A stretch of DNA of 64,000 nt from Antedon mediterranea. Lineage: Eukaryota > Echinodermata > Crinoidea > Comatulida > Antedonidae. The translations under genes were made by a program, and so were the position numbers. The stretch covers positions 11,419,001 through 11,483,000 of the forward strand of contig NC_092671.1 in the NCBI RefSeq assembly GCF_964355755.1, given 5' to 3'. Below are positions 13,006 through 61,326 of this stretch, piece by piece. Below the pieces are notes generated by a model, which saw only the letters and a program-made list of their open reading frames with translations, was not told the DNA's origin and made no database searches. Numbering within the stretch: the first letter of the stretch is position 1; each line of letters begins with the position of its first letter.

Positions 13006-13019
13006 AGTGTGATACTGGC

Positions 13020-13328: not shown

Positions 13329-13637
13329 TTGTTATATCTAAAATCCTGTAGTGACTCTTTCTCGGCTAAATTTAAGACTTATTCTCAAAACGGATATGAC
13401 CAATGAAGTGTAATTACAAAAATTAGACAGTGTATACCACGATCGGAAAACACCCCTACTTGGGGGGAAATCGTTGAAGCTAAATTCGTTTTAATTGTCA
13501 ATAATTAATTATCTAACTCAATTTTATTAGTAAACATGGTTACATCAGGTGGTTAAAATCAGTACTGAAAGTACGAACCAACTTTATAAACCATCAATTA
13601 AACAAGTAACGCGCAACTTTAAATTGTAAAATATTAG

Positions 13638-22184: not shown

Positions 22185-22313
22185 CGTGAAGATTGAAAAG
22201 ATGAGTAATTAATACAATAAAAAAAGAGTTAAAACAAGAGCATATTTAGTTTCTGGTAATATGTAGTTTCTCAGAGAATCAGAGTCACGCTTAGGCCCTG
22301 TCTCTGCAGAATT

Positions 22314-38300: not shown

Positions 38301-41300
38301 TACTTTTTTACATTGTTGCTTTTCATTGTTAAGTTCCATGTTGAATGTCTGTTGAATTTTAAATGGTTTTAATAATGTTTTTTGTATAGTTCTGCTATTA
38401 AGATAAGATAACTTTATTTCTTCCACAAAGTGGAAATAATGGTCCTAAAGTTATCAATATCAAGTCATAAAGTCAAATCATCTACAAAATTTAAGTATCT
38501 ACCTATTGCAGTTGTACTGGATGATATTAGGGGGAACAAAGGAGATAGATTGCGAATCTATTTGAGTCTCATCCTACCGCTTGGATTGGATGAAGAGGGT
38601 GGGAGACATCCATAACAATGATGTGACTATGATTTTTCTTAAGTTGCTCGATGTAAATGAAGCAATATCAAATGTGAATATTGTTTTCCACACTAGATTT
38701 AGATGAGTGTGCAATTAGCAAAGCCTCAGATATTGAACTGTGTTTGCCACACTCTATGTGTATCAATGAAGTCGGTTCATACACATGTGCCTGTATGGAA
38801 GGATTTCAATCTGTACTCAAGTCAAACAAACAAGTATTTTGTGAAGGTTAGTAACATGAATGGACGAAAATGGGAAATATTAGGCCTATGGTAATGTCTA
38901 AGAGACAAAATGTGTCTTTTTAAAAGTAACCATAACTATTTGTTGATAATACATTAAAGAAAAACAAGAAATATGAAGATCACGAAAAACATGAAAAATG
39001 AAGATTAATTTTAAAAACTACTTCTACTTCTGTAGAAAAAACAATAAAAAAATAATGTTTTGACTTATAAAAAGTCAAATTCCACCAAAACCCATTGACT
39101 TCCAGTCAATGTGACTATTTTTTGCTTTAAATTACAGTTTGTTTAGGTAAATATTTTTTTTAGGTAAATTTGTTTTATTTTCAATCCACTGAATTTTTAG
39201 TGAATAACTATTATTTGACCTTAAAATGGCATATATAAAACAAATTTTAAAAATTATTTTTTCAGGGGGACAATACTTAAAGACTTTAAGAAATAAAATG
39301 GTTATCAACTATTTTACATTAAGGTTTTTTATTATTTGTATAGATTTAAATGAATGTGAACAGAATTCAGGCATATGCTCATCAAAGATCAACAGCTACT
39401 GTGTGAACACATACGGAGGTTATGAATGCCAGTGTGAACCAGCTTTTAAGGACATTCATGGTGTATGTGCTTGTAAGTATATTCATAAAATATTGGTGCT
39501 TTGGTTAATAGATTAAATAATGCCCCGCTTTGAATAAACACCCCCCCCCCCCCCTATAGAACATCATTTTGAATAAAGTACGCTCCCCTCAAATAAACAC
39601 CCCCCCCCCCTATAGAACATCATTTTGAATAAAGTACGCTCCCCTCAAATAAACACCCCCCCCCCCTATAGAACATCATTTTGAATAAACGCTCCCCTCA
39701 AATAAACACCCCCCTCCCTATAGAACATCATTTTGAATAAACGCTCCCCTCAAATAAACACCCCCCCCCCCCCTATAGAACATCATTTTGAATAAACGCT
39801 CCCCTCAAATAAACACCCCCCCTCCCCTATAGAACATCATTTTGAATAAACGCTCCCCTCAAATAAACACCTCCCCCCTCCCCCCTATAGAACATCATTT
39901 TGAATAAACGCTCCCCTCAAATAAACACCCCACCCTCCCCTATAGAACATCATTTTGAATAAACGCTCCCCTCAAATAAACACCCCCCCCCCTATAGAAC
40001 ATCATTTTGAATAAACGCTCCCCTCAAATAAACACCCCCCCCCCCCTATAGAACATCATTTTGAATAAACGCTCCCCTCAAATAAACACCCCCCCCCTAT
40101 AGAACATCATTTTGAATAAACGCTCCCCTCAAATAAACACCCCCACCCCCCCCCCCCCCTATAGAACATAATTTTGAATAAACGCTCCCTTCAAATAAAC
40201 ACCCCCCCCCTATAGAACATCATTTTGAATAAACGCTCCCCTCAAATAACACCCCCCCCCCCTATAGAACATCATTTTGAATAAACGCTCCCCTCAAATA
40301 AACACACCCCCCCTCCCCCTATAGAACATCATTTTGAATAAACGCTCCCCTCAAATAAACATCCCCCCCCCTCCCCTATAGAACATCATTTTGAATAAAC
40401 GCTCCCCTCAAATAAACACCCCCCCCCCCCCCCCCTATAGAACATCATTTTGAATAAAGTACGCTCCCCTCAACCAAATAAACACCCCGGGTCTTTATTT
40501 ATTTGAATAAATTGGTACATAATAAATAGTACATTGATAGATTGAACATCAACCCTCTTTCTGTTACAGCTGTTTGTGATATTATGGAGTGTGAAAATGA
40601 AGCAACTTGTGTTATCACAGGTGAAGGCAAAGAACCAGAAGCAGTATGCATGTGAGTAGGTGCTCACCTCAATTCCTATATGAAGTATTAATTTGCTTCA
40701 GTGACCTGGGCTGCTGGTTGAATGCCCTTCGCCTCCCCTGCTTCAGTCCAGGGCTGTTGATTTATTGCCCTCTCTCAAGCTTGCATCCATTAAAAATGTG
40801 CACAAAAGTTAATGTTAAGGAGAACTTTATTGAACCTATATGTCTCTGACCCTACCATAAATAATACTATAAAAATATACTATCAATAAAACTGGAATCA
40901 TCAAAAAATTAACATTAATAGGGTTAATACAGTACATTAAACTTTCATTCATATTTAACTAATTTACATACAGGTGCCGATCTGGTTATCAAGGAGAACG
41001 TTGTGAGGAAAAATCAGGTGAATATTTTATTTGTGTGTATTATTACTGTACCATACACCCTTACACAAATTTTGTAAAATACAAGATAAATTGTTACTTA
41101 TTCTTTCATTATTCAATATTTATGATGGAGACTACAATAATAACATTTGTTATCCTTTTGTTTAGATTTATATAAAACAGCAGTAGGTGTCGGTGTCTCC
41201 TTTGTTTTGCTCAGTTTCCTGCTGTTATTAGTCATCATTGTTATGGCATGTAAAAAGCAATCGGGGTAAGTCCCATAATCAGCAGTAATCTAAGTCACTT

Positions 41301-41833
41301 CTATTTTATAAACCAAAAACTGTAGAAATAAAATATACACATTCATTCATAATTCAATTTTAACTATTAAAATTGATGTAATTAGTTTTTCTTAAATAAC
41401 AATATTCAAATTGATAGTTTGGTCATTGAATTATACCAAGGCAATCTAACAACAGGACACTGACTTTGCCGTGCCCGAATGCCACAAATACCAACAGTAC
41501 TGTACTATGTACATATTCTCTACGGTCACCAGTGTCTGTTTAAGGGGCATGTAACTGATCGTGTCGCTGCCACAGATAAACCTTTCGATCTCCAAAGCTC
41601 AGCATCCTGTTGTTAAATTGCCTTAGAAATAATTTTAAAAATGAAGTAGTATTGAAAGATGGTGTATATCTAATACATATATTTTTTATCATTTTAGTAA
41701 AACATACCCTGATGAGGACCAGTATATAGATGAAGGATGGGATGAGGGCAAAGGTCATGAAGAAAAACAAAAGGCAAATGGAGGTCACACAAATGTGGTC
41801 ATGATTGCAGGAGATGTGGACAATGAACCAAGG
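26363..41833 (+). CDS. EGF/SEA-domain single-pass membrane protein (21 coding exons seen)
   Basis: Exons: 26363-26414, 31626-31682, 32013-32222, 32645-32719, 33030-33149, 33615-33740, 33983-34105, 34492-34611, 34927-35040, 35741-35884, 36125-36265, 36779-36904, 37349-37467, 37708-37772, 37917-38083, 38697-38846, 39344-39472, 40570-40651, 40974-41017, 41166-41265, 41698-41833. All join in frame to exactly 800 codons. Order: signal peptide MKAVTLMAVLFLQLVSK, Pro/Thr-rich mucin-like stretch to about 131, eight EGF modules (about 132-469; several calcium-binding with DxDEC/DINEC starts), a SEA domain (about 470-586) with G533-S534 at the usual self-cleavage place, EGF 9-11, one helix (GVGVSFVLLSFLLLLVIIVMAC) and an acidic tail. 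EGF exons are mostly phase 1-1. This EGF-SEA-EGF-TM layout is that of membrane mucins such as MUC13/MUC17. Likely a cell-surface adhesion or barrier protein. The end of the tail is modelled at 57132-57236. Confidence 0.8.
26415..31625. other. First intron of the EGF/SEA gene
   Basis: 5.2 kb. It holds a duplicated block near 26560-26720 ('ctgttcattattagttctattgcaccgtaaaagttctattta' twice), a C14 run near 29267-29280 and a MITE-1 copy at 30760-31095. No gene is recognised; open frames at 28353-28568 and 29785-29979 look like chance. Confidence 0.5.
27500..27575 (-). repeat. Possible tRNA-derived SINE head
   Basis: The minus strand has an A-box-like 'tggcgtaacgatcg' and a B-box-like 'gggttcgagactt' about 40 bp apart. 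No full cloverleaf could be drawn. It lies in intron 1 of the EGF/SEA gene. Confidence 0.3.
31695..31780. repeat. Poly-G / poly-C inverted runs
   Basis: 'ttttttttgggggggtgag' with a long G run is followed about 40 bp later by 'cccctcccccccccc' and A8. The two runs are complementary, and the G run could also form a quadruplex. They lie just after the donor of exon 2 of the EGF/SEA gene. Confidence 0.75.
32256..32560. repeat. MITE-like family 1 copy
   Basis: 'gatgtattacggtcccc' through 'taggaggacaataata'; same inner blocks as 9312-9668. Intron 3 of the EGF/SEA gene. Confidence 0.65.
32808..32932. repeat. MITE-like family 2 copy
   Basis: 'ggtctgtctacactgtccaac' against 'ttgatagtgtagacagagctta'. 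The cleanest copy in the window, with arms of about 20 bp. Confidence 0.8.
36276..36535. repeat. tRNA-like SINE head joined to a MITE family 2 copy
   Basis: 36283-36345 has A-box 'tagcttggtgg' and B-box 'agttcaatcctg'. It runs into 'ctaaacttcaaatgag' and then the MITE ends (36372-36533). The same junction ('aatcctgacctagtg' ... 'taagcctcaaatgag' ... MITE) is seen at 41970-42151, so the two parts move as one unit. Confidence 0.55.
38960..39280. repeat. MITE-like family 1 copy
   Basis: 'gatcacgaaaaacatgaaaaatgaag' through 'tttttcagggggacaatactt'. It ends about 65 bp before the exon at 39344. Confidence 0.6.
39524..40492. repeat. ~53-bp tandem array with C-runs, about 18 copies
   Basis: The unit is 'tatagaacatcattttgaataaacgctcccctcaaataaacacc' plus a C run of 6 to 17. 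Unit sequence is highly conserved while the C tract varies, as expected of slippage. It fills most of the intron between exons 39344-39472 and 40570-40651, ending about 75 bp before the acceptor. Confidence 0.95.
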
Positions 41834-42336
41834 GTGAGAAATTACATTTCATTAGTCCTTTTGTTACACTTTTTCAGCACTGATTGGTCACAGCATTGGA
41901 ATTTACTAATTTGTAGTGGAACTGTTGGTGTTAATGTGCTTCATGCCTTCCAGTTCCAATGGCCAGTGTTCAATCCTGACCTAGTGTTCGGTGTTAACTC
42001 ACAACTGCTTACTCCATTCTCTAAGCCTCAAATGAGCTACACTATCAAACTAGTGATGTACCCAGATATGGTAGTGATATGACATCACCATGTCCATTAT
42101 AATGGGCACATCACATGTAACATAATGTTTGATAGTGTAAACGGAGCTTAAGTTCAACTAATGAATAAGCACGATAATCAGTTTATCCATCCTTGGCGAG
42201 TGTTTTGCTGTATAGTGTTGGATGTGTATAATTTGTTTTTATGTCAACTACCTAACTACATGTGCCTATCTTGTTTGCATTATATTATACAAAATGCTAA
42301 ATTTCAGATAATAACATAAACGAGGGTTTCTTTTCT

Positions 42337-42802
42337 GCGAGTTGCGAGTTGCGAGTTGGAAAATGCGAGTTGCGGGTCGGAAAATGCGAGTTGCGAGTCG
42401 GAAAATGCGAGTTGCGGGTCGGAAAATGCGAGTTGCGGGTCGGAAAACGCGAGTTGCGGGTCGGAAAATGCGAGTTGCGGGTCGGAAAACGCGAGTTGCG
42501 GGTCGGAAAATGCGAGTTGCGGGTCGGAAAACGCGAGTTGCGGGTCGGAAAATGCGAGTTGCGGGTCGGAAAATGCGAGTTGCGGGTCGGAAAATGCGAG
42601 TTGCGGGTCGGAAAATGCGAGTTGCGGGTCGGAAAATGCGAGTTGCGGGTCGGAAAATGCGAGTTGCGAGTCGGAAAATGCGAGTTGCGGGTCGGAAAAT
42701 GCGAGTTGCGGGTCGGAAAATGCGAGTTGCGGGTCGGAAAATGCGAGTTGCGGGTCGGAAAATGCGAGTTGCGGGTCGGAAAATGCGAGTTGCGAGTCGG
42801 AA
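42337..42802. repeat. 21-bp minisatellite, ~22 copies (orientation 1)
   Basis: The unit is 'gaaaatgcgagttgcgggtcg', with 'gcgagtcg' or 'aacgcg' variants. Because 21 is divisible by 3 it is open in several frames on both strands, giving false proteins of 155-215 residues. The same unit occurs in reverse at 56533-57080. Confidence 0.95.
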
Positions 42803-44989
42803 ATTGTAAAAATAATAATTTTTCAAGGAGGTCGTACCATCCAAAAAAATAAATACATGAACCAAACAATCAGTAAATAAATTACAATTTAAATTTTGTT
42901 TAGTTTTTTTCATATTATGACCTGCTTAACAATTATAGACTAGTGATTCCTTTTTTAACATGGATGTTTAAAAATGGTTGAAATGAACTTATTTTGTATT
43001 TCAACACAAAACAATTATGTTATTGATACTTTATATTTTGAAATAATATAATTGTAAATATAGTAGATTAAAGTTATTATTTAATTTGTTTGCAATTACT
43101 GATGATGATACAATTACTAATAATGATACAATAAATTATGTACATGTATTTTTGCCTTGTTAAATGAGAAAATAATAATAAATTGGTAAGAAAAACTCAC
43201 ATTAAAAAGTACAGTTAGTATTGTTATTATTAGTATTGCAGGGAGGTGTTTACAGTATTTAGGTAAGCTGATTAATTATGATGGTTGGAGTCATTAGTAC
43301 TACCTTGTGTACAGCAGATACCATAAATAGGGCAAGGAAACACATACCATACCTACAGATAATGGTCAAATTTTCAAAGCTATATTATTTTCTTAGAAAT
43401 CATAGTCAATTCTTTATGTTTATAATATTTTTTTGTTAAACATTTTCAGACAAACTGTCCATAGATACATATAAATACATATGAATACAAAAAAAAGAGA
43501 AGAAATACACAGTTTATTATGTGTAACACCCATCAGCAAATCATGGAGAAGACCAATTAATGTATCTATTGAAATATAGTGCATCTCTCCAATTAAAATA
43601 CATTCTGGAATCTAACCATATATTCATAATCTAACATTTTTTTTGCTTTTCATAATTTTGGAAAGAAGACTGTAAATTGTCAACCTAAAAAATTCATAAG
43701 AAGATGGAATATTGTTTTCTACAAATAATTTTCTCTGACTTAGAATAGATATCGGAGTTGACAACAACAACATGCGGAATAAACACAAATTCATGCTTTA
43801 GTATGTACACGTACAGTACAGTAGGCATCTGTCAAATGTACTATGTGTATTTAAAGTAACTTTAGCAGGGTACAGATGTAAATACTGAAATCACTGGTTT
43901 GTTTTTAGAGAAAATATAACTTATAACTAAGATAATTCAAATTTACTTGAATTGAATTGTTGAATTTAGGTGACAATAATCATTGATCTGCGCCCACAAT
44001 TACATAGGAGAAGGAATTATTATTACTTATATACAGTATTGTTTGATGAAATGTGTGATACAGTAGGTGAAATGAAGTTGTATTTTAGTTGTTGTTCAAC
44101 GCGATGATCAAATATACAACACACTAAGAATGTAAAATTAAACTGTACATTTTGTATTGCAAGTGAAAAGATGCAGTAGAGTCGATCGCATATAAAAAAA
44201 CACTTGATCCTCAAATAAATGAATACACAGAATACATTAGAAAGTACTGGAATCAACACAGTGTTGCTTGCTTATGAATTGGTTAAACTGACTGATTAAA
44301 TGAGGAGATTGCACCCTTATTTATATCTTATTGATATATGGGGGTGCCAATTATGACTTCATCGCATAACTTAGAGATGAGAATAGTTAGTTTTTAGATG
44401 AAACTTAAATGACATCATCATCTTTAAGAAGAAATTATAGATGACATCATACCAACTTTAAGTCACAATCCCTTTTGGTATAGTACACAACAAGTGTCCA
44501 TGACAGGTAAATTTATGGGCCCTTTGGGAGTACCTAGTACAAAAGTCTGCATAGTGTAGTGCTGACTTATACAAGTAATAATATGTTAACAATTATATGA
44601 AAATGATTGTGTAAATAATAAAGTTAAAAGTAAATGCATTAAAAATCATGTGGTGGGCTAAACTGTCAGGCTTCTTATATTTATTAGTAGGTAGCAGACA
44701 CAAATCTACAATGTGGACCTTTATCAAAGCAGTCATTAATTGTTTTAGTAAAAGATACCTGCCCCAGGGTGGGAGTTAATTGCTTCATGGAGACCATGAT
44801 GGAGAATTCATTATCTTTTAAACCTACCACCAACCCCACCTCAGCTCCTCCTCCCAACCAAGATCCACATGCCATACATCCCTGAGATGGTTCAAATGTA
44901 GTAAATTTTAAATCAGATTATTTGATACAACATTACCTCTAAATGCCAGTATTTCCTTATACATGAACATTCAAACAAACAAAAATAAG

Positions 44990-45306
44990 CGAGTTAAAAA
45001 AAAATCTGCGAGTTAAAAAAAAATCTGCGAGTTAAAAAAAAATCTGCGAGTTAAAAAAAAATCTGCGAGTTAAAAAAAAATCTGCGAGTTAAAAAAAAAT
45101 CTGCGAGTTAAAAAAAAATCTGCGAGTTAAAAAAAATCTGCGAGTTAAAAAAAAATCTGCGAGTTAAAAAAAAATATGCGAGTTAAAAAAAAATATGCGA
45201 GTTAAAAAAAAATCTGCGAGTTAAAAAAAAATGTGCGAGTTAAAAAAAATGTGCGAGTTAAAAAAAAATCTGCGAGTTAAAAAAAAATCTGCGAGTTAAA
45301 AAAAAA
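44990..45306. repeat. ~19-bp tandem array 'gcgagttaaaaaaaaatct', ~16 copies
   Basis: The unit begins TGCGAGTT, the same 8-mer that opens the 21-bp minisatellite unit, followed by an A7-A9 tract. This suggests a shared origin of the arrays. Confidence 0.95.
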
Positions 45307-46429
45307 TGCTTGATTTAAAAACATAAATGTTATATATTTATCAGTTATAATTGGATAACCCTTCTCTTTTAACATTTTAGTGAGCCACTTGAGTGTTCAT
45401 TTCGATTTTAATCTTTTGGATTTTGAACTCTTTACTTTGTTTTGTTTTTGTCTGATGAAATAAATGAAAAAATATACATATTTGAAAATTCTCACTCTGT
45501 TTATATATATGTGTATGTGTGTGTGTGTGGGGGGGGGGGTATTAAGGTGGCACATAAGGAGATACTGGCATGTTTGCATTAGTAGTTATTATTTGTTTTT
45601 TGTACTAAAAACAAGTTAAATTAAATCAATGGCAATCACATAGATAAAAGAAGATAAAAGTTACAACGCAATCAAGTTTAAACTATGTTATGTCCGACAG
45701 CTTCAGGCCCGTAGCCAGGGTGGATTTTTTATGGTTCGGGTGAAAGTATTTATTCTCTCGTTACTATCATCATTATATCATTACCATTAAAATTATAATT
45801 TTACATTGTTTCATTATCCACATAAGTGTACATTGATTCATTGTATTGATTGAAAACATATTTTCACAAATCATATTAAAGAAGAAACTTGATGTAAAAA
45901 AATATTGAGTAATACAGTAGCCTGGATTTATTTATATATGTTGTGAAGCTTTTAACGCTGTGTAGGCTACCCATCCTAGTAAAAAGTAAAAAAAAATCAC
46001 TTGTGCCGCTTCCTTTATATAGTAAGGGCAACAAGGGCCTTGTATATAATTACTAGCCCAGATACTAGCCAGGGCGGGAGTACGTTGTTGCATTGATGAA
46101 AGTTTAGAGAATTGACTGTCAATAGAAATAATGATATATATTTCAATCTTTTGTGGTGGTTTCCCATCTATTTTTATAAAATGTAAATATTAATCAATGC
46201 AGAAAGAAGTAAAAATAGAATGTAACATTCTCGGCTGTATATTAAATAATACAGATGTTTATAACATCTGTATTAACTGTGTAATGTGTCATATTGGATA
46301 CGGTAATGATTGAAATTGTTTGGCTCGCCTTCATAGGGTCAACTATATTGTGTTTTGAGAATATACCCTTCCCAGCATGTCAAGCGAGCTGCCTAAATCT
46401 TCTTTAGGTTTCTATTTTCGTATATTTGA

Positions 46430-46625
46430 GTCTCCCTTTTCCTATATTTTCCTACTTTTTGTATATTTGGGTCTCCCTTTTCGTATATTTAGGTCTCCCT
46501 TTTCGTATATTTGGGGTCTCCCTTTTCGTATATTTGGGGTCTCCCTTTTCGTATAGTGGGGTCTCCCTTTTCGTATAGCGGGGTCTCCCTTTTCGTATTG
46601 GGTCTCGGGTCTCGGGTCTCTGGTC
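46430..46625. repeat. ~22-bp tandem array 'gtctcccttttcgtatattt' and 'gggtctc' run
   Basis: About eight units of varying length, then (GGGTCTC)n near 46600-46630. It ends about 370 bp before the kinase-fusion ATG, so it may sit in that gene's 5' region. Confidence 0.9.
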
Positions 46626-46994
46626 TCGGGTCTCTAGTTTCGAAACACCCGTCAAAACCTACCGTATTTAAAAAATACCTGGCCAACCTAAAATCAAAAG
46701 TGTATGGTTTTTGTTCATTAATGAAAACTAATTGATCACAGAAGCTTGTACTAGTAGGCCTACTAATAACATGGGTGGCATAGCTTATCAGAATAGTGTC
46801 TACATATCGTCTATTGCCTTATCTAATCATTAAAACCTCAGACTCAACCATAAATTAAATCTGATCCATCCTCATTGTCTTTATTTTGTATTACTTTTAG
46901 AGCTAAATGATTGGACAATTAGTTCAATTTTGGGGGGTTAAGTAAAAAAGTTGACACAGAAAGTATTTAGTTCATGAGATGATCACAAGTCATA

Positions 46995-49900
46995 ATGGCT
47001 TTCAAAATTCCTACATTATCTGTATCTAAGAAGAAAGTGTATGATATTTCAGGGATTCAAAAATTTGATTGGAGCGAAATCTCATTTCCAAATGAGATTG
47101 GGCGCGGGGCATTTGGTATTGTACATCGAGCTACATACAAAAACAAACTAGTTGTGGTAAAAAAAATTATTACCGAGGATGAAGAATACAAAAAAATGAT
47201 GGCCAAGGAATGCAAACTAATGAGTGCTCTTCAACACAGGAACATAGCAGATTTTAAAGGAGTGTGTGAACAACCTTACTCTATTATGGTGGAGTACTTA
47301 TGCTTTAGCTTTAATCCATTTGGATTTGCAAAACAAGTTAATGATCTCTCTCAGTGGTTAACTGCTATTGACCAATTAGAGGATGCATCAGATATGAATG
47401 ATTTCTCGTCAATAATTGTTACGGACATTGCCAATGGACTAGACTATCTGCATCATCTTAACATTATACACAGAGATCTAAAACCACAAAATGTGCTAAT
47501 CTCCAACAGGCATTATTCTGAAATTAACTGTGAAACTTCAGAATTTTACAGGGAATTTCAAAAGTGTCCCATTCATTGTAAATTGACTGACTTTGGGGAA
47601 AGTAGATCTGACTTCGTTCAGACTAAATCACTTGTAAACAATGCAACAGAAAATGTCCATCGTGGATCTATGCCATATATGGCTCCTGAAATCCTAACAC
47701 ATGAATCACAGTTTAAAGCAAGTATAAATGATCTGAAGAAAATCGATATCTGGGCATTGGGAATGACGATTTATAATATCTGCAATCCTGGGGTAAAATA
47801 TCCATATGAGCTTGACACACAGGAAAAAAGTCAATTTCGGTTTCAGAAGTTTTTGATAAATCAATTAAAGAATGGCAAGCGCCCATCACATTCTACAAAA
47901 TACAGTGATGTTCAAAAAACAAAATGGAAGAAGATAATGAATATATATTTTCGGTGCACCATAGTAAATCCACTAGCCCGTCCAAAAGCTTCATGGATAG
48001 TCCGTGAATTAAAAAAATGGTAAGTACAGTTTATTTTGTGACTATAAAATCAATAATTCTTTGTAATTTAATATAGTGCATTTATTGTCTTTGTAATTTT
48101 ATATTATTAAAGCTCAGGCAGGCATGATTTTTATTTATTATTGTCGGAATACATGTACATAAAGAAAAAAATTATGGTCAAATAATTAAGAATTTGCCAG
48201 ACAAACTTTTTCAGTAGTTATGTAGGTATGCTTTAATCTGATTTACTCAACTCTAGAAAGTTATAAAAGTGCAAACAAATTATATATGAGGATATATAGT
48301 GGATAAGTTTTGATATAGCACAAATATAAAAATCTGAAGTTAAATATAAACACCAAAAATAACAAATTCAAGTTAATAGTCATCTGATACATTTTTTTAC
48401 CAAACCGCTTTGTAAGTTAAGAATAAAATGAAAAGTGAATTTTATGTTCAGTGTTGAAACCTATCTAAATTGTCATTCTATTACAGTGGTGGTGCTAGTA
48501 CTAGTAGTAACATTGATGACTGCATTGACATTTCTGAAGATGAAGCCAAGTCTAGTAAAAGTGTACCTCATGAAAACAAGAGTCTTAATGAACATGACAT
48601 TGACTGCAGGTAAGAACAGATAATTCTGGGTTATTACATCACAAATTGCGTAGTACAAGACCACAACAATTTATATTATAGAACGTTACAAGCTATAAAT
48701 TATCTGCTGCTAACTTTAAGATAAAACAATTGATATTACTCAATTTAAAGTAAACTTTGCCTAAAATTTTAAATCCATTCTTTATTTTATTAATTAGTGA
48801 CATTGATGACTGCATTGAAATTTCTGAGGCTGAAGCCAAGTCTAGTAAAAGTGTACCTCATAATGAACATGACATTGACTGCAGGTAAGAACACTAAACA
48901 AAAATTAATCCATTATAACATTAAACAGTAATTCTATTATAATGTATTCTCTATCCCTAGACAATTACCTAATTTACAATAACTGAGCCGAACAGAAAAT
49001 AACTGTTAATGATCTGTATAGAGAGCAATTTTTGTTTTTCATTTCATTGGTCGCTTGCATTATTCTATTCTTAATGATAATAATAATAATAAAGTTATCG
49101 GAAAACGGAAAACTTGATTACTTAACAAGTTCGTTTCAGTATACAAGACTATTTACAAAAAAAACAAACAATTAAAAAAAAGTAAAAGAAGTAAAAAGAA
49201 TGTGACTAAACCAATTCTTTATTTTATTAGTAACATTAATGACTGCATTGACATTTCTGAGGATGAAGCCAAGTCTAGTAAAAGTGTACCTCATGAAAAC
49301 AAGAGTCTTAATGAACATGACATTGACTGCAGGTAAGAACAGATAACTCTGTGTTATTACATCACAAGAACAAACCCTTAAAGACCACTTTATATTAAAT
49401 TGACTACATCATGATTTAGTAAAAAAAATTTCCAGTATATTATAGGGAACTTTAAGATTTCTCATATGTCTGTATTCAGTTTACATCTGCCTTATATTCC
49501 TACTTTTTTTCAATGCTAGTAAACTCTATATAGGATTAGTGTTATCTGAAAGATCTTTAATTTAACATGATGTATTGCAAATAGTAACAAAAGAGGTATG
49601 GCAAGGGAGAAGGTGAATGCTGCCATTAAGGATAAAACAATTGATATTCAATTAAAGGTATTTTTCGAAAACTTAGCCTTAAATGTTTATTCTGTTCTTT
49701 ATTTTATTAGTAACATTGATGACTGCATTGACATTTCTGAGGATGAAGCCAAGTCTAGTAAAAGTGTACCTCATGAAAACAAGAGTCTTAATGAACATGA
49801 CATTGACTGCAGGTAAGAACATTATTATGAAATATGATCTTTATTTGATGATTTCAATAAAATTCTTTGCTAATGTAACAATCTCTAAATAAATATGTTA

Positions 49901-52900
49901 AACTGACACCCAATTATATAATTTAATTTATTTTATTCTTTCAGTACTGCTCAACAGGCTTTTCAGTACAGAAGACCTACTAGTGAATTGACCATGGTAT
50001 GCTAATAATTTGTTTCTAGTTTTATACATACAGTAATTAACAAAATTTGTAAAGCTGTATTGTCCCCAGAAAACATGAAATATGAAGATAAAATAGACTT
50101 TGTAGTTTTAATTAATAAAGTTAATCACTTCCATAGGGAAAAAAAGCCAATCTGACCATTGTTTTGCCTTAAATAACAGTTGTTCAGATAAAAAATAATG
50201 TTTGGTCAAAGTGAATAACTATAACTATATTCAACAAAACAACTTAATTTAACGTTTTTTTGTAAACTTTGCCTGAAATGTTTATTCTGTTATTTATTTT
50301 ATTAGTTTCTAATTTTGTTATGATACAGAGAAATCAGGATTTTGTTATAATGGGAGATTTTCATCAGGCTTCCGAGGAACAATTCTTCCATGATGCTGCA
50401 GGTTCTCAGTGCTGCTCCATAAGTATAATGGCGATAGTATTCAGTAAAATGAAAGCATCAGTTAATTGGACTAAAGATATCATTCATGATATAATGATGC
50501 AAGGTGACGCTGTCCATGTGTCAGCTTTAAGAAGGTTGGGATGGCCAGATAAACGAAGAGAAAAAACACTTGATGTTGATGAGCTACCAGAAATTTGGAG
50601 CTATACAGTAGATGGAAAACATATGAAAGCCAGTGTTGGTACGCTTGAAGGTGGCAAGTTTGGCTATAGTTTACACAATTTGCTAACCGAGTCACTTGTC
50701 ATCAATTCATGCTCTTATCTGCTAAGAATTGCAGATAAATGCACTGCCATCATAAAAGATTCCAGTGAAGGATGGAGTCTATTTGACAGTCACGCCTGTA
50801 ACTACAAAGGGCAACGAGACCCTGATGGTGCAGCAAGTATGACAAGGTTTGGGACAGCAACAAGGTTAATTGAACATTTAGCAACATCATATCCTGATGA
50901 TGGACGACAAATTGATATTTTTCCAGTTTATGTGCAGATATTAGGTGAAGATGAAGGTAAGCAATCTGAGTTTCTAAAATCATTATATAGACTGAGTAAT
51001 AAAATTAAAATAATGATAGTAATTTATAATTATTAAAACGCTTAATTGCACACTGTTAAATTTGCAAGTTAAAAAGGAATTAAATCTTCCAACCCTCTAT
51101 TATTAGCATCTATTTTAAAACAATTTTATAATTTGGATTTAATTTAAGTTATTACATATTTTGAGGTGAAATTTCCATTTAAATAATAATCATGATAACA
51201 AACTTTCTTGTGTTAGTATCGCATTAGTTGCAAACATTTCAGTTTTGATGACATCATCAAGTCCAAACACGGATCACTTAACTATACACTATTATATAAC
51301 ACATAAATAAATTCATGTAAATTTACAGTATTGGACAATTGTGGGTCACATGATTTTAATAATTTCCATACAAAATAATGTACCATAATTGATTAATGTG
51401 ACATTAACAATCAATTTTATTTATTTTAGATAATGAATCTGATTTGAACGATACAGATGACAGTTCTGACTTCTCGATGAGATATAAAAATAAGAAATAT
51501 GACAAAGAGCACTGGAAAGAATGTATGCCAAAACAAGTCAACACACTGCCCTTTGATATCAATGGCTTAGAAGTTTATCATCTTTCCTGCAGTAAACAAA
51601 GTGAAATGATGAAAGTTTCAAAGGACGGAAGGCCATGGAACCGTTACTGCAAGACTTCACGAAAACACTTTAAGGGGGTACGACGTATTGCACACTGTAA
51701 AGGATCGCCAATATGTAACAACCCGGAGTGCACATATCTGAAAATGTATGGGTGTCAAAACAGAAGCCAATTCGGTAAAGAGACGGGCATATTAGTGTGC
51801 TACACATGTGGGAAGGCAGCAGATCATGTAAAATGTTATGCCACGAAGGTATGGGAATACAGTAACGACATGGTGGTTGTTATGCATACTGGCTTCCACA
51901 CATGTGTAGCAAAAAAACCAAATGTTTCTGTGGCCGTCATTGAAAAGGATATAAAACAGCATCCTGGTCTCAAGCCAAGTGCCATCGTTTCGGCCAAAAT
52001 AAACGCAATCATGACCTCCAACAGCTTCAAGTGGAAAGATGTGGATGAGTTAGCTGAAAGATATAGTGAAATGAAAAGAGTCCACAATGCAAAGGAAAGG
52101 TTGAAGCAGGTGATGTTGCCACTTGGTGACAATTTTGAAGCTCTCGCGGATTTTAAACAGAAATGCGAGGAAAAGGATAAGTACCTAATATATCAGATAA
52201 ATAACAGGACCTTTAACAACAAACATAGTTATGTTTTCAAGTCCAGCAAACAAATGGCAGAACTGGCTCTATCAATGGACAGAGACCAAGATGGCATATT
52301 GTCAGGTGAATATGCCTATGTTGACGGCAAACATAACCACTGTAGAGGTTATGTTACGATCACATTATGGGTTTACCATCCAGTAATGAGACGAGTTGTT
52401 CGCCTTGCAGTGTGTGACACAGAGAAAGAGGACACCACTAACCTTGAAACATTTTGGAATGTTTTCAACGAGATGCTCTCTAACGCTGCTGGACGAACAG
52501 TAATTTTCAATCCCTGTGGTTTTGTTGCAGATGAAAATCATGCCAACTGGAAAAGTATCAAGAATGTGTTCGGCGATGATGGAGTTCGTAGAACTGTATC
52601 CTGCGAATTTCATTACAAGCAAAGTGTACAACGCCATTCAAAAAAAATTCCGCAAGATGATGCTGCACAATTCATTGAGATTGCAAATTCTATGCTCACT
52701 GCATATTCCCTTACTGAACTTAATGAAGCATGCAAAGAAATGACCAAGTTCACTGAGAAGCATCAAGTTCTTCAGAACTGGTATTCCTGGTGGTATGCTC
52801 GAAGAAGTCATATTTTTCGGGCTTACAAACCAAGTGATGCACCAGTTTCAAACTTGGCTGAGGTAGGGCATGCTAAAATGAGTGTGTCAAAGCAAAAAAT

Positions 52901-53492
52901 GTCCCTTTTAGAAGCAGCTAGGCAAGACGTAATCGATGCCATTAGACAACAAGCTGAGATTAACGGCTTCAAAGAAGGTCAACATAAGGGGGGCAGAGGA
53001 GAAAGAGCAAATAAGAAAAAAGCGTTGAAATACCGCAATGAAAAGAAGAGAGCTGCTCAATATGCAGAAGAGGTGGAGCATCTCTTCATTCCAGATCAAG
53101 GGTCTCATCGTCCGCCAGAACCAAAAAGGAGAAAATTAGCAAAAAGGGCACCAGTGAACAATGACGAGCATCCAGTATGTGTTTGTTTTTCAACGATGGT
53201 AATTAACCTTAAAACATGCTATGGGTGCAAAGAAAGATTTTCAGATCGCTACAGAAAAGAGCCAAATGATGTCATCTTAAAAGTCAACCTGAAAAGGAAA
53301 TATACAAAAGATGGCAAAGAACATGTAGCATCGAAGGTATCTGCAGCCTACTTTCACCTAAACATGAACTGCGTAAGGAAGGTTAAACCGTACGCAGAAA
53401 TCAACGAGATAGTCATTCACAATGAGGTAAAAGCACTCTTAAGAGCAGGACACAAACAGGTTTTAAAAATATTTGGAATGAAAGCAATATAG
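46995..53492 (+). CDS. Protein kinase - 4x SUMO-interacting motif - cysteine peptidase - MULE-like transposase fusion
   Basis: Exons: 46995-48019, 48487-48609, 48798-48884, 49231-49332, 49711-49812, 49945-49996, 50329-50956, 51430-53492. All join in frame to 1,393 residues; an in-frame TGA lies 15 bp before the ATG. Kinase, 31-341: glycine loop GRGAFG 36-41, K56, E72, HRD 159-161, DFG 199-201, APE 230-232, D251, all present, so probably active. Residues 342-479: four repeats with CIDISEDE-type SUMO-interacting motifs. Residues 507-700: papain-fold peptidase of the C76/OTU-like kind, with GSQC525C, GTLEGG and FD650SH652 as likely Cys and Asp-x-His residues. Residues 790-866: Cys/His zinc motif (HCKGSPICNNPEC ... 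FHTC). DDE core: D1005 (YVDGKH), D1074 (VADENHANW), CEFH 1098-1101, E1184 (NLAEVGHA). A C-terminal TCYGCKERF motif follows. It is either a domesticated transposon fusion or a transposon that captured a kinase. No terminal repeats were found. Confidence 0.75.
48487..49812 (+). repeat. Fourfold tandem exon duplication (SUMO-interacting motif exons)
   Basis: Exons of 123, 87, 102 and 102 nt, all phase 2-2, share the NIDDCIDISEDEAKSSKSV peptide and the donor context 'gactgcag|gtaagaac'. The introns are also alike near the acceptor ('tctttattttattag'). A further copy of the acceptor DNA without its exon lies at 50260-50306. Exon 2 has D-to-E and D-to-A changes and a 15-nt loss against copies 3 and 4, so it is the most worn. 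Confidence 0.85.
50050..50240. repeat. Shortened MITE-like family 1 copy
   Basis: 'ctgtattgtccccagaaaacatgaaatatgaag' through 'gtcaaagtgaataacta', in the intron before the peptidase exon. The right end is missing. Confidence 0.5.
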
Positions 53493-56400
53493 ATTTGGAG
53501 GCTGCTATTTTTTAAATAATATTAAAATACAGTGTGATCACTACCCATGAATACTTATAACTTGACATTTTATTATAAATACATCATGTAAACTTTTGGA
53601 TCTCTGTGTTTTTGGGGGGTTGGCTGGGGAATGTGTTTATGTTGAACAAAGCTACAATATTTTAAAATATATCTGTTCTGTTAAGGGTATGTTCAGACTC
53701 ACAGTGTACGGTTTGTTATCTGACGCAAGACGTCAAGGTGTTCAGACACAACGATCAACATTCCAATGCTTGCATTTAAAACACTCTGATAATCAGATCT
53801 AAGCAGATTGAACTATGTATACATTCATGATGAAAAATGCATTACAGTTTACATTTTAAAGTTGTTTTTTGATATTTTTATTTATACAGTATAATGTTAC
53901 CTTCAAAATACTGATTTGTTCTTACCACTTGCAGAATTGCATTCTAATTCAAAATAATTTCAAACACAATTAGCACACGGCCAATTATCTGATTATTACA
54001 GTATTGTATTTAATTTATGAAAATATATCGCTGACGTGAACTTTACTTTAAAATTTAAAACCTGATAGTTTGACGGTCAGCGATCTCGATGTATGCCTGC
54101 TATTAACCGTGGTCGTGTCTTTTTATTGGTTAAGGTTAAAATCACTGATGCCTCACTGGATTAGCATTATTAAATCTACCCTCTTCTTCAAGGGTTATTA
54201 ACGCAACTGGTGCGGCGTAACAGCTCCCTAACGCTAATCCGTGGCCTAGTTCACACACAAAAATATGTACGCCGCTTACATAATGCCACCTTAACTGAAC
54301 ATATCCTAAAGCAAACATATTCCTTATTATCTTTAGTTACAGAATTATAACAAACAAGTTCTTATAAACAGTAACTTAGGTATCATTTCGTTCTATCTTG
54401 TAATACACAGTGCTTTGAAACATGAGGTTTAATTAATAACCATAAACTTAAATATTGTTTTTAATTCTGTACATTTTTTATTTTTAAGAAAGGTTTTAGA
54501 ATTCAATATTGTCTAGAAAACAATTCTTTTTTAAGGGATTTACAGTACAATTATTAAAATGACTGTAACTACAAAATTTGTAATATATCTACAGTATTAC
54601 AATTTTGGCCTCATTTGGAGGAGGCGGATATGGTGAGGGGTGTGAAGAAAGTTTGGTTCATGTTAAGCTTTGACTTTGTTCTACACTGCATTATAAAGTG
54701 ATTTTTTTTTGCTTTGCACCATAGGTCTAAATGTTTATAATAATAATAATAACAACTTTATTTTAAAACGGATGCAACACTTGGATCACCAGATTGGTGT
54801 TTTTCACAAGGCCGTTACTTACTACAAAACTATTTACACAAGTTATCATTTACAGTACATAATGATTTCATGAAAAACAGGGTTTCAAGTATATCTTACC
54901 TTCATTTATTATTTTTTTAAATATATGTATATTAGGAGCTGTAATTGCATTTGAGTTTATAGCATTTAAACTATTCCATAACTTTGCTATTGATCTAGTA
55001 TTATATGTTTGTTTGCGTTCATAGAATCTGTTTCTTAAGTAGGATGGTGTTTATTTATTTATTATGTTTAAGAGCTATAATGTTTTTTTTACCATTTTCA
55101 GGTAAATTATGTATGTTTTTATGAAACGCTGTGAAAAGGGTTTAGAATTTAATATTGTCTAAAAAAACAAAAACATTTTTTTTAAATCTTTTATTTACCA
55201 TTTAAGTATGTCAGGGATCTACAGATATAAATTTAAATGTTGATCTTAAAATGTGACTTAAGATTGTAAAATTGTCCTTGACAGGAATGGGGAAGGTGGG
55301 AGATATTATGTTATTTTATAATGTTATTTTTTCTTTCAGCATGCTTTAGTATCTAGTATTTTATGAATTTAGTATTTTATGAAGCTATGCATTGACTGTG
55401 TACATGATCACTGTACTATCAGAATTATCTTGTTGTATGGCTGAGGTTGTAAAAATTACTGTAACTACTGCAACGCCTACACCTCCACCAGATTGTGCAT
55501 ACAGTCTATGCCCCATGCCGGGATAAGGAATAAGAAAGGTTGTTTAGTTCATGCTAGCTTTTCTTTTCTTGTGTTCTACAATGCAGTGCAGTGACAATGT
55601 TCAAGTATTTGTATGTGGTCAACTATTTAGTCATGATCGTTATGTTTAAAAGTTAGGTTTTACTTAACCCTTTGAAGACACAAATGACTGAGGCTAAATG
55701 AAGTATTTTTAATAGGTTTAACTTTCTTTTTCTTTTTGGTATGTGATACGTACTATACTACAGTACAGTACTATGTTTTTACCAATTTGGTATGGATGAC
55801 GTGGGTTGAAATTAACATGAAGGGGTCACTTTAAGGGGGCCTGGCCTGACATGACATTTCCGACCTGATATTTTATCAGTTTTTGTTTTTTTGTTATGTC
55901 CTCACACACTTATGTTTGTACAAATTTTGGTTCATGGAAGAGATGTAGGGAAATAAACCATTTTTGGAGGTTTTCAAAGAGGTCTGGAGACCAGACCCGA
56001 CCCCCGGGGTCAGGCTGGCAAACTTTTTTTTAAAATGTTTTTGGTATAGTATTAACATTAAGGGGTCAAACCTTCTGGGTTGTATGGGGTTAAATCATAT
56101 GTTACGGGCTCTTGGCCTATACTCATCTCGTGGAGTTTTTGCCTGAGAAACAGTGTTTCTTCACCAAGTGAATCTAATCTAGGCCTACCTCCAATGCTTA
56201 GCCTAGAACTGTAGTAAGCACTGACTTAACTAAAACATAAACAAGTTGAGCATTCAGAAACAAATAATGCTAAAGTGAATAATAAAAAAATATTGTAAGC
56301 AGTGTTAAGAAAATAATTAAATTTCTTGCCATTGTCATATATGCCACAATAGGTTAATTTTGGTGATCATCCTACACTATGTACAGAGTCTACACACCTG

Positions 56401-56528
56401 GGTGGGTTGTATCATGTCGCACTGGTCGCAGATCAAATATAATGATTAATTATTTCATATCACATGCTCAAGCAATTTGTTTCTAACATCCACAATACAA
56501 CCCACTCTATTTTGTTTAGGTAGGACTG
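53493..56528. other. Right part of the long intron after the nested gene
   Basis: 3 kb of AT-rich DNA. 'aataataataataacaacttta' at 54735-54850 resembles 49075-49165 (a SINE tail). Short ORFs at 53596-53802 and 55964-56146 have no recognisable content. The nested gene's poly(A) site must lie here; I found no clear AATAAA close to its stop. Confidence 0.4.
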
Positions 56529-56532
56529 GTGT

Positions 56533-57080
56533 ATTTGACCCGCAACTCGCGTTTTTCGACCCGCAACTCGCGTTTTTCGACCCGCAACTCGCGTTTTTCG
56601 ACCCGCAACTCGCGTTTTTCGACCCGCAACTCGCGTTTTCCGACCCGCAACTCGCGTTTTCCGACCCGCAACTCGCGTTTTCCGACTCGCAACTCGCGTT
56701 TTCCGACTCGCAACTCGCGTTTTTCGACTCGCAACTCGCGCTTTCCGACTCGCAACTCGCACTTTCCGACTCGCAACTCGCACTTTCCGACTCGCAACTC
56801 GCACTTTCCGACTCGCAACTCGCACTTTCCGACTCGCAACTCGCACTTTCCGACTCGCAACTCGCACTTTCCGACTCGCAACTCGCACTTTCCGACTCGC
56901 AACTCGCACTTTCCGACTCGCAACTCGCACTTTCCGACTCGCAACTCGCACTTTCCGACTCGCAACTCGCACTTTCCGACTCGCAACTCGCACTTTCCGA
57001 CTCGCAACTCGCACTTTCCGACTCGCAACTCGCACTTTCCGACTCGCAACTCGCACTTTCCGACTCGCAACTCGCAACTT
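56533..57080. repeat. 21-bp minisatellite, ~26 copies (orientation 2)
   Basis: The unit on the plus strand is 'cgactcgcaactcgcacttt', with 'cgacccgcaactcgcgtttt' variants at the left. This is the reverse complement of the array at 42337-42802. It ends about 50 bp before the candidate last exon of the EGF/SEA gene. Long false ORFs of (FPTRNSH)n or (ASCESES)n cross it. Confidence 0.95.
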
Positions 57081-57131
57081 GCATTGAAGTAACACTCAAC
57101 ATAAACTTGTTGGAATTTCTTTGTTTTTCAG

Positions 57132-57236
57132 TATGTGACAGTACCAAAAGAAGGTTCCAATGGTACGGCACTATCAACACTCAACAAATCAAGTGCATCC
57201 ACTGAAATACAAGTTGAACCAACATCCTACTTTTAA
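57132..57236 (+). CDS. Candidate last exon of the EGF/SEA gene
   Basis: A T-rich stretch and 'tttttcag' precede 35 codons (YVTVPKEGSNGTALST ... VEPTSYF) ending in TAA, and AATAAA follows at 57245. The exon must be entered in phase 0, which is exactly the phase left by the donor at 41833. The peptide is hydrophilic with many Ser/Thr, fitting a cytoplasmic tail, and ends in S-Y-F, the form of a class I PDZ ligand. With it the protein has 834 residues. The alternative is an unrelated gene's exon; the 15.3-kb intron is the main doubt. Confidence 0.5.
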   Translation, partial: YVTVPKEGSNGTALSTLNKSSASTEIQVEPTSYF

Positions 57237-57859
57237 CAAATGCCAATAAATCTTAATTCCAGAAATTTAGTAACATGATTTATTTTTGTGTTTTTTTTCT
57301 GTCACACTGAAAAATATTTAAATTGTAGCTGCTGATTTTATAACAATTTCTAGTATTAAACTATACTGTATATTAAACCCCGTAAACACAAAAACTAAGT
57401 AAATTTTAATTTTTGGTCTTCTTGTAAAGAATTCTAAACTTTGTCATATTATATTAATAATGAATTTATATCATCTTTTTTACAGCTTATTTCTTTAAAA
57501 TTTAAGATTTTAATCACTTTGTTCTTTTTTATCTTTTGATCATTTTTGATTTCAAGAAATATGAAAGCAATAAATTTGTATTTGTAAAGATAGGCAATAT
57601 CATATTTAAATAAATTTATAAACAAATATATGTATGAAAATAAAGTAATAATAAATTATTTTGAATCTTATGAGAAGTAATTGCTTTTATTGTTGTTATT
57701 TGATGTTGTTGACTGCGGAGATGTTTGAGAATTAGAATCTCAAAAAAGATAACTAACAGACAATGGTATAGTTTTATTTAATTAACTTACGAAGATGAAG
57801 AAGAATTTTTACAAATGATAAACAACGTATTTTGATAAACGAGTGATGAATAAAGGGAT

Positions 57860-58520
57860 CAACCTGAGTTTTCGGCATGTATTGAATATAGGACTATTCC
57901 ATTATTATTTATAGGGGTGTTAGTCAATATGTTGGGTTGGGTGTGCCAGGCTTGTTGAGGCTTCTATTGTTCGTGTCATTGTGCCAATTGTTTTGTATTT
58001 CACTGTGTTTGATAAAAACAAACAAAAAACTGCTGCTGTAGTTAGCCTATGTGTCTGTAAATTATATCGTATTTTACACTATATTTATATAGCCTGTAGG
58101 CCCTAACATGTTTTTCTACCGTCAACAGTAAAATCATATCATGTTTTATTTTACATTTCATGTAATATTATTATTATTTTTTTTTCTCAACAGCCGAATC
58201 AAGTTATATAGCCTCTTACAAATAACAAGAAAAAATACATTCAAACGTTATTCACAATAAGGAGAAAACATATACAACTTATTTAATTTATGTTTTAATT
58301 TATATAATCCAAAGGCAAATTAATGAAACAATGACAATGATGTGGGTATCAGTGTCTGGATCTCAATAGAGATACAAAAAAAAAGCGAAAAGCTAAATCA
58401 AAACGATAAAGTAAACAGCCAGAAAAACAATTTATATAAATACATCCATGTTTGTTTTTTTCTCAACAGTTTATGACTTTAAAAAATTCAGTACACTTAA
58501 AGGCATAAGATTAAGCAAAA
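57860..58520 (-). repeat. Inverted, worn copy of the 629-bp repeat, with a Penelope-like insertion
   Basis: It is the reverse complement of the unit at 60113-60741: 'gatcaacctgagttttcgg' at the left, then 'ctcaacag...ctacaaataacaagaaa'-like sequence near 58190-58235. A piece of the Penelope-like terminal repeat ('ggatctcaatagagatac ... aaacagccagaaaa', 58340-58437) is inserted within it. Confidence 0.75.
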
Positions 58521-58764
58521 CATACATTGTGTAACATATTTAATTTAAGGTATATATGTTTTATTTCATCGACCCAGTTTTAAGTGTTATTTAGTAGTGT
58601 CATGTTTGGTTCAACTCAATGAGTTAGCAATGTTCGTGAGGTTCTCTCTCCAGCTGATCCTGACACAAAAACTAAAATAGTCAGAAATAAAATTGCAGAA
58701 CTTTCTCTCATGCAACACACACTAACCCTTCCCCAGTACAGGATATATAGGGCCTAGTACACTG

Positions 58765-59255
58765 TTAAAAAAATTCTTATAAAAAAACGGTAAATTACTG
58801 GCAATCTGGACGCCAGTAATTTACCGTAATGTAGAATTACAGGTACTGTTGAAAATAAATTACTGTAAAACTACAGTAAATTACTGTTGGTCATAAAGTC
58901 GGTTGCCTACCGTAATGTAAAATCACAGGTACTGTTGAAAATAAATTACTGTAAAACTACAAATTACTGTTAACTTGAAAGTCAGATGTCAACTATAACG
59001 TAAAATCACAGGTACCGTTTCTAATAAATTACTACAGTATATTACTGTTTATCTGAAAGTCTGTTTGTCAACAATAACGTAAAATCACAGGTACCATAAA
59101 ACTACAGTAAAATTACTGTCGATTTCAAAGGAAGTGGTCTACCATAATTTAGAATAATGTTTATAAATAACTGTAAAACTACATTAAAATTACTGTCGAT
59201 TTCAATGGGCAATGGTAATGTAAAATCACAGGTGCCGTTATTAATAAATTACTGT
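58765..59255. repeat. Degenerate ~120-bp tandem repeat of 'aaattactgtaaaactacagt'
   Basis: About four worn units contain 'taatgtaaaatcacaggtaccgtt' and 'aataaattactgtaaaactacagt'. The left end has a 16-bp-arm palindrome 'acggtaaattactggc' / 'gccagtaatttaccgt' at 58788-58828. Confidence 0.8.
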
Positions 59256-60112
59256 AAAAGATTTAGTGAATTCAAACCAAACAAAATATTACAAAAATAT
59301 AAATACCATACAGACAAAATAAATACATGCCAATCTTATTTCAATAACTGATAACAATAACAAACTCCATTATAACATTTCTTTTTCTACTTGTCTAAAC
59401 ATCTTGTTTCTGTCATGTTCTTATGTTCTCTACAATGTTCATTGTATCTGAACTTGATCTGGGATTCTCTGTAAACGTTTCTTTTTTTTAAATAAACAAT
59501 AACATTTTTATAAATCTATGCCTATATTACATAGATGTTTTCAATCTTCAAAGAACGTCTTCTATTAAAATCTGTTTATCACCTATATTTAGATTGATTT
59601 CAATATAAAATATTTAAGTAATTGATATTTACAATCGATCGAAAATCTTTAAAAAACCAATCTATTAAAATTAGACCTACAGTACCATCTATGCTTGATC
59701 ATTAAATAATTAATATGGACGTTACAATCATCAAAATATGCCTTATATTAAAATGACCATCAAATAAATGGAAGGTTTATTCCAGAGTACAGGACCTGGA
59801 TGTGGTAGATGGAACAGTAAACCACAGTAAGAATGTTGTTGATCCAATAACAGGATTCCACACTCAAAACATAGAATCCTACTGGAATCGTGAAAAATTA
59901 AAGTTAAAAAGAATGGGTGTAAACGGGAATGGTTACCGGAATACCTTGACGAATTTATGTGGCGAGAAAGATATGGCATAATATAAATTAAACAGATTAA
60001 GTAAGTTAAAATAGATGTTCCTTGTGCCTTATTAAATAATGTTAAAGTTCTTGTGCCTTATATTTGAATAAAGTTTGAAGAATGTATCTTTCGATCTGCT
60101 TTTGTTTTTTTG
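59256..60112. other. AT-rich DNA without a recognised feature
   Basis: Two short open frames (59157-59351 plus, 59743-59979 minus) show no family features. The block 59755-59990 is richer in codon-like sequence but has no splice or protein support. Confidence 0.4.
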
Positions 60113-60741
60113 CTTCTGTAATTGTTTTATTATTTTTGATTTGATATCTGCTTTTTACATTTATTTTTGTTGGTGTTTTCTTTTGAGCACGTTTTTGTTA
60201 CTGAAAAACAACTTTTAGTTGAGTTAAGTATCCGTGATTAAATAAAGCTTATTATTATTATTATTATTATTATTCTATCGATTTTTTTCTTGTTGTTTGT
60301 AGAGGCTATTTGCAACTGTTGAGAAAAAAACAAACATGGATGTATTTATATAAATTAAAACATAAATTGGATATTTTATATAAATTAAAACATAAATTAA
60401 ATAAGATTAAAATATATATGAATCTTTTTCTTGATCTTTTCTTGTTATTTGTAGAGGCTACTTGATTTAACTGTTGAGTAAAAAAACATGTTAGGGCCTA
60501 TAGGCTACTGTATATAGTGTAAAATACGATATAATTTACAGACACATAATAAAAGCTATAGGCTAACTACAGCAGCAGTTTTTTGTTTGTTTTTATCAAA
60601 CACAGTGAAATACAAAACAATTGGCACAATGACACGAACAATAGAAGCCTCACAACCCAACCCAACATATTGACTAACACCCCTATAAATAATAATGGAA
60701 TAGTCCTATATTCAATACATGCCGAAAACTCAGGTTGATCC
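60113..60741. repeat. 629-bp direct repeat, copy 1
   Basis: From 'cttctgtaattgttttatta' to 'aaaactcaggttgatcc'. By eye it is the same as 62853-63481, with constant offset 2,740, so there are no indels. It contains 'aataaagcttattattatt', the tail style of a SINE or other retroposon. Confidence 0.9.
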
Positions 60742-61326
60742 CAATTCATTGCATAGTATTTTGAAAAGTGCATATTTTGGTCGTTTTTAAAAAATGACCA
60801 AATTTTGACCTCTTTATTTGACATAAATGGTTACTATACGTCTAAAAGATAATAATTAATAACCCAATATACGCGCATATATAGAAATTTTATTGCATAA
60901 TAACAGTATTTTTGAAAATGTGCAGAACACAAACATTTGATTCTGCGCATGCAAATTATATGATATAGTAAACAGTTATATCGACATTTAGCCATTTTTT
61001 CTAAATTTTTCAGAATAAATGGCCTAAAATGTATTGATTTAAAATGCGCAGACCATTAGCCTATGTCAAAAAATAAAATTTGGCCATTTTTCGAAAATGT
61101 CCTGTACTATATATAGTACGATAACATTGCTGAAAGCTCTAGTTAGAAAATGTGATCGGCAAGGAACTATAACGAACATAATGCTTAATAACATCTTTGA
61201 TAAAAGGAGACTTTAACGAAATTTGTGACAAAATATTACCCCTAATTATGGTTTATAAAAGGATCTAAATTTATTTGAAATAGTAAAAATACACAATATA
61301 TGTTTAGGTGAACAAATATCATGAAT

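Follow-up and report, generated by a model that had tools for sequence, protein, structure and literature searches.

Deubiquitinase domains of the herpes tegument-like VTD type are found on transposons of the Helitron and Helentron groups (Erven et al., 2022; PMC9741609; this and the other articles cited here are drawn on for those portions of their text that were available). According to the same article, VTDs in several Cnidaria are fused to various regions, transposon-associated domains included, and the presence of a deubiquitinase on a protein of transposon type is thus not in itself new. It was also suggested there that VTDs shield transposition proteins from the proteasome; the reason for which transposons carry deubiquitinases is not settled. 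Protein kinases are among the domains associated with the most transposon or viral domains (PMC12062965), and the fungal TET-carrying IS3EU transposons are DNA transposons accompanied by a kinase (PMC12730594). Host-type enzymes joined to a transposon domain are represented by the SETMAR-type fusions (PMC8616336) and by proteins combining a kinase with transposon or viral domains (PMC12062965). The subject of the present analysis is a gene of the crinoid Antedon mediterranea, located on the + strand at positions 46995–53492 of a window of 64,000 nucleotides (contig NC_092671.1, 11,419,001–11,483,000), which appears to bring together a protein kinase, a VTD-type peptidase and a DDE transposase-like body.

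This gene resembles the Helitron and Helentron systems in the Gln-Cys and Asp-x-His residues of its peptidase exon and, like them, would have its VTD on a protein of transposon type. It differs from them in that the partner of the VTD is a DDE-type body and not a Rep-helicase, and in the kinase that lies upstream; the word kinase is absent from the main text of the VTD article (PMC9741609). While the kinase of IS3EU is an alpha-kinase encoded by a separate gene opposite to the transposase (PMC12730594, available text), the one considered here is an ordinary kinase domain within the same reading frame. The SETMAR-type fusions and the proteins of PMC12062965, as far as described in the available text, likewise join an enzyme to a transposon domain, but the present gene has three enzyme parts in one chain, a deubiquitinase among them. 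The original prediction, which was made from the same DNA, held that such parts are not normally found together. For the pairs this was put too strongly, as VTD-transposon and kinase-transposon combinations have been published (PMC9741609, PMC12062965 and PMC12730594, each in its available portion). The combination of kinase, VTD and DDE transposase in one system was not found in a literature search that had most subscription journals and supplements outside its scope and covered other sources in part.

The exon chain was rebuilt from the sequence and was found to consist of eight exons and seven introns, all of the GT-AG type and with agreeing phases, giving a spliced frame of 1,393 residues that runs from the first ATG within the kinase open frame (46995) to a stop at 53492. 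The predicted protein of eight in-frame exons was thereby reproduced, and every catalytic residue claimed for the kinase, the peptidase (Cys, Asp-x-His) and the D/D/E set with its CxxH was located. The gene model is real, intact and unusual. Measured from stop to stop, the open frames of the kinase, peptidase and transposase-like exons extend over 346, 256 and 694 codons, and all of these, the last above all, would appear longer than chance in DNA as rich in A and T as this window (G+C of 28–39% per 2-kb step). The donor consensus is MAG/GTRAGT, and six of the seven donors match it at eight of nine positions; among all 3,597 GT sites that the window has on its + strand, 0.7% do as well. On this strand CAGGTAAG is present at four places, which are the donors of the four repeat exons 2–5. 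Codon usage of the kinase part correlates with that of the peptidase-transposase part at 0.825, compared with 0.784 and 0.802 for the respective parts against a G protein-coupled receptor (GPCR) frame elsewhere in the window; this is weak support for one gene, because each part correlates nearly as well with the receptor.

Exon 1 (46995–48019) encodes residues 1–341 and contains the kinase domain in a single exon. It was searched against profile hidden Markov models and scored 121.7 bits with the Pfam family PF00069 (Pkinase; curated cut-off 31.7), so that a kinase identity was borne out above the cut-off. Scores of 109.8 bits with PF07714 (cut-off 23.1) and 20.2 bits with Pox_ser-thr_kin (cut-off 19.7) were also obtained. 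Kinase catalytic motifs comprise a Lys, HRD, DFG and APE, and here Lys56 (codon at 47160), HRD at residues 159–161 (Asp161 at 47475), DFG at 199–201 (Asp199 at 47589) and APE at 230–232 are all in place. At an E value of 1e-10, 246 distinct PDB sequences matched this exon, the best among the 60 listed being CTR1, ULK1/2, MAP3K5, ABL1 and RIPK1. This spread of matches points to an ordinary kinase with no obvious near relative in PDB. The exon ends in a GTAAGT donor, and reading through it unspliced would add a Trp followed by a stop.

Exons 2–5 are copies of one exon. They lie at 48487–48609, 48798–48884, 49231–49332 and 49711–49812, respectively, and three of their six pairs share 96.5–99.2% identity in blastn alignments that extend into the flanking introns. 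The other three pairs (78–83%) all involve exon 3, which carries a 15-nt in-frame deletion. The introns between them are far more divergent than the exons, both in length and in sequence. A tandem duplication of a phase-2 exon together with its intron could have produced this array, which would form a flexible acidic linker. Exons 2 and 4 have open frames without an ATG and therefore need an upstream coding exon; the closest long candidate is the exon of the kinase. Exon 6 (49945–49996) is a bridge of 17 residues with ATG as its last codon, a strong acceptor and a weak donor. The core of the repeats is DCIDISEDE (CIDISEDE in exon 2, CIEISEAE in exon 3), and the array had been described as a SUMO-binding block. 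Three strict patterns of the SUMO-interacting motif (SIM), namely SIM-a, SIM-b and SIM-r, were used to examine it. None matched anywhere in the 1,393 residues, while patterns with Cys permitted at position 1 matched three of the four repeats. The block cannot be called SUMO-binding on this result, and a SIM-like core with Cys at its first position is possible from its sequence.

Exon 7 (50329–50956) contains the peptidase residues Cys525 (50410), Asp650 (50785) and His652 (50791). Its best matches were the Pfam family PF04843 (Herpes_teg_N) at an E value of 0.001, with 19.2 bits below the cut-off of 25, and, by sequence, the PDB entry 8ADD at 0.004. The latter comes from a zebrafish Helitron, of which it is the second VTD domain, and the Asp-x-His order is described as invariable in VTDs (PMC9741609, available text). 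In the alignment with 8ADD, which covers residues 14–186 of the exon, Gln-Cys falls on Gln-Cys and Asp-Ser-His on Asp-Ser-His. Other matches were weak (a dehydroquinate synthase at 1.2; three PHROGs of unknown function at 0.22–0.28), and no match to NCBIfam was found. An identity of exon 7 as an OTU peptidase or deSUMOylase was considered and was set aside in view of the two best matches. Exon 7 is better read as a predicted C76-like VTD deubiquitinase. Ubiquitin probes react with the zebrafish Helitron VTDs, two of three of which also react with NEDD8, and SUMO1, SUMO3 and ISG15 probes do not (PMC9741609, available text). Because SUMO1 and SUMO3 were spared in that study, deSUMOylation by exon 7 is unlikely. 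Of the two activities originally proposed, deubiquitinating or deSUMOylating, the first would thus agree with the VTD type and the second is disfavored.

Exon 8 (51430–53492) consists of an N-terminal part rich in Cys and His, a DDE transposase-like core and a tail with further Cys before the stop. The richness in Cys and His would be expected for a zinc-containing DNA-binding region, with no known finger matched by this part in Pfam. Within the core, Asp1005 (52323) and Asp1074 (52530) are 69 residues apart, the His of a CxxH (His1101, 52611) follows 27 residues past the second Asp, and a Trp cluster (1157–1161) lies 23–27 residues before Glu1184 (52860), which is itself 83 residues from the His. 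In its order of Asp, Asp, CxxH, Trp and Glu the predicted core resembles MULE and hAT transposases. The active mosquito MULE Muta1 has the same distance of 69 between D214 and D283, but its CxxH His is 24 residues past the second Asp, its Trp is 18 residues before the Glu and its His-Glu distance is 112 (PMC5225508, available text).

Taking these parts together, the favored reading, to which we would give a probability of about 40%, is that of one gene of DNA-transposon descent with a MULE/hAT-type DDE body, a VTD, an acidic repeat linker and an N-terminal kinase. The transposon ancestry is suggested by the type of the VTD and by the grammar of the DDE residues. If all parts are translated from one mRNA and are active, the N-terminal part would act as a serine/threonine-type kinase, and the C-terminal body, as a MULE/hAT-type DDE transposase, would carry the protein to DNA. 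There the VTD could remove ubiquitin from the protein and its partners and so prolong the life of the protein, while the kinase may phosphorylate the transposase or nearby host factors and thereby set its activity. It is more doubtful that the product is a single transposon-encoded or transposon-derived protein which uses its in-line kinase and deubiquitinase to steer, in the complex that it forms on DNA, both phosphorylation and the turnover driven by ubiquitin. The product may be a chromatin regulator, or the gene part of a transposon with its own host-control module, as originally proposed, and no convincing transposon ends were found. If a VTD and a kinase are indeed in line with a DDE transposase, the idea of protection from the proteasome would become testable within one protein.

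A number of observations weigh against the favored reading, and these concern the DDE body, the joining of exons 6 and 7 and the ends of a possible element. Compared with MULEs, the gene has a very long N-terminal extension and lacks a Pfam MULE match as well as convincing inverted repeats or target duplications. Neither the whole of exon 8 (E values up to 1) nor its C-terminal 430 residues (E values up to 10) matched any transposase family in Pfam, and three smaller parts gave only Toxin_TOLIP (4.2) and DUF6062 (0.02), both far under the cut-off. The remaining matches were chance-like (FliH of NCBIfam at 0.056, a PHROG of unknown function at 0.029 and a PDB chain at 0.72), and the best of those below the cut-off, DUF6062, FliH and the PHROG, are unrelated. 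The residue pattern of exon 8 was matched by 15 of 5,000 shuffled sequences when hydrophobic residues were demanded before both Asp and by 326 of 5,000 when they were not, and since the tolerance windows for the spacing were fixed after the residues were known, the test gives support and not proof. The claim of a DDE transposase therefore stands as regards the residues and their spacing, while no profile at cut-off agrees with it. Structure models predicted from the single sequence were of too low a quality for use: the one made for the VTD fold had a predicted local distance difference test score (pLDDT) of 31, and a second, with 41.7, gave no Foldseek match at an E value of 0.001 or better. 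The strand-helix order of the latter was compatible with an RNase H-like fold and is given no weight.

It should also be considered that the chain may be an artefact of joining two neighboring units, namely a kinase-repeat protein ending after exon 6 and a VTD-transposase with a start of its own. The weakest donor and the weakest acceptor of the gene coincide at this junction, the donor of exon 6 matching six of nine consensus positions (best 16% of GT sites) and the acceptor of exon 7 lying in the best 14% of 3,237 AG sites. Read through, exon 6 continues as Met-Val-Cys-stop, with the stop at 50003, only six bases beyond the donor. Further on, at 50114, there is an AATAAA, though this motif is frequent here (eight in 9 kb of AT-rich sequence). 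ATGs in the peptidase frame occur at 50278, 50320 and 50350, and the aligned VTD part begins just past the last of them. A shorter protein could also start within intron 4, as the frame of exon 5 is open back to an ATG of its own at 49598. On the other hand, the acceptor of exon 6 ranks in the top 1.7% of AG sites, and the reading frame is kept along the chain; for a random exon of 52 nt and intron-like composition, the chance of being open is 19.4%, to which the one-third chance of a correct phase has yet to be applied. The gap between the two supposed units is only 332 nt and is in part intron sequence homologous to the introns of the repeats. The stretch at 50168–50305 in intron 6, immediately upstream of the peptidase exon, shows homology with intron 4 (49555–49710), with a score of 90 against at most 53 in 60 shuffles, and partial homology with intron 2 (69 against at most 48 in 60 shuffles). 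The homology of introns 2, 4 and 6 indicates that the multiplied array of repeat exon and intron reached the peptidase exon, as would be expected if exon 7 followed the array within one gene at the time of the multiplication. Exons 1–8 are for these reasons probably one gene, and the division into two units, although it deserves to be taken seriously, is rather unlikely.

The ends of an element were sought as terminal inverted repeats flanked by target duplications of 3–11 bp, with the left end allowed at 43501–50329, so that an insertion inside the kinase gene was covered, and the right end at 53492–56999; duplications composed of only one or two kinds of base were excluded and six shuffled controls were run. 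With duplications of 3–10 bp, including the 8–9 bp typical of MULEs, no candidate exceeded the best of the six controls. One candidate with an 11-bp duplication had 11 of 20 matches against 10 in the best control, but is A/T-rich and is given no weight. In an inverted blastn of 38001–46994 against 53493–62000, all 40 matches listed were minisatellite. In a second run, six tandem-repeat stretches were masked and the left side reached to 50328; the best among the 25 listed of 32 matches were one that joined a dispersed repeat of intron 3 (49072–49216) to 60269–60120 (E value 1.6e-8), one that joined 45889–45944 to 58482–58427 (71%, 8e-4), and A/T-rich matches. The apparent lack of ends fits a host-transposase fusion, in which a kinase gene of the host acquired a VTD-transposase through splicing, in the manner of SETMAR, and the resulting protein now serves the host as a regulator. 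This alternative also gains from the retention of the catalytic residues. Against it, a kinase domain confined to one exon, as here, is unusual among the host kinase genes of animals, and an intact DDE set is unexpected if only DNA binding had been retained. Fusions of this kind did arise by splicing in tetrapods, where 106 fusions from 94 events were reported (PMC8616336, available text), and the host fusion is all in all unlikely for the present gene. The missing ends would equally suit a decaying transposon copy that has lost them, has no function at this locus and has frames open only by recency. This is very improbable, as the frames of 346, 256 and 694 codons are open from stop to stop and the sole indel seen among the repeat exons preserves the frame. 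The favored reading of one transposon-derived gene is the one that we retain. No relatives of exons 1, 7 and 8 in viral contigs, or of exon 8 in prokaryote contigs, were found in collections that are poor in animal genes.

Further repeats were noted around the gene. Within 44000–56000, 14 inverted pairs of at least 25 nt were present. One pair of 33 nt and 76% identity, in intron 4 (49551–49583) and past the stop (53571–53603), was tried as the ends of an element and was rejected, as 38 of 200 shuffles reached its score; it was the sole pair of the 14 to be examined in this way. Two minisatellites with a near-identical 21-bp unit in opposite orientation flank the gene at 42343–42803 and 56537–57076. 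They were considered as long terminal repeats of an element and were dismissed, the neighboring sequence being dissimilar by eye. Both share the core TGCGAGTT with a third minisatellite at 44977–45307. Just 3' of the gene, at 53671–54320, two imperfectly matching inverted ends of 26 nt (77% identity, TTAAGGGTATGTTCAG-like at the start) lie 598 nt apart and may mark a small, non-autonomous TTAA-type element. A repeated stretch is found at 60153–60416 and at 62893–63156, approximately 2.7 kb apart, part of which matches 49072–49187 in intron 3 at 71%.

Elsewhere in the window, three adjoining frames on the − strand at 345–3429 encode an integrase core with a chromodomain, a PC4-domain protein and an acidic protein without a Pfam match, the last with a stretch VIIISDDEE that is SIM-like by eye. 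Together they resemble a portion of a large mobile element that bears an integrase. A near-identical tandem unit of about 155–158 bp is present at two sites 9 kb apart (3918–4295 and 13024–13330). Two frames on the − strand, at 12568–13026 (without a Pfam match) and 21747–22208, are very similar by eye and look like the first exons of duplicated transporter genes, presumably SLC22-like. A transporter fragment was also seen at 18158–18547, and the GPCR frame used above in the codon comparison is an open frame on the − strand at 61327–62301 with a rhodopsin-type match (7tm_1, 61 bits).

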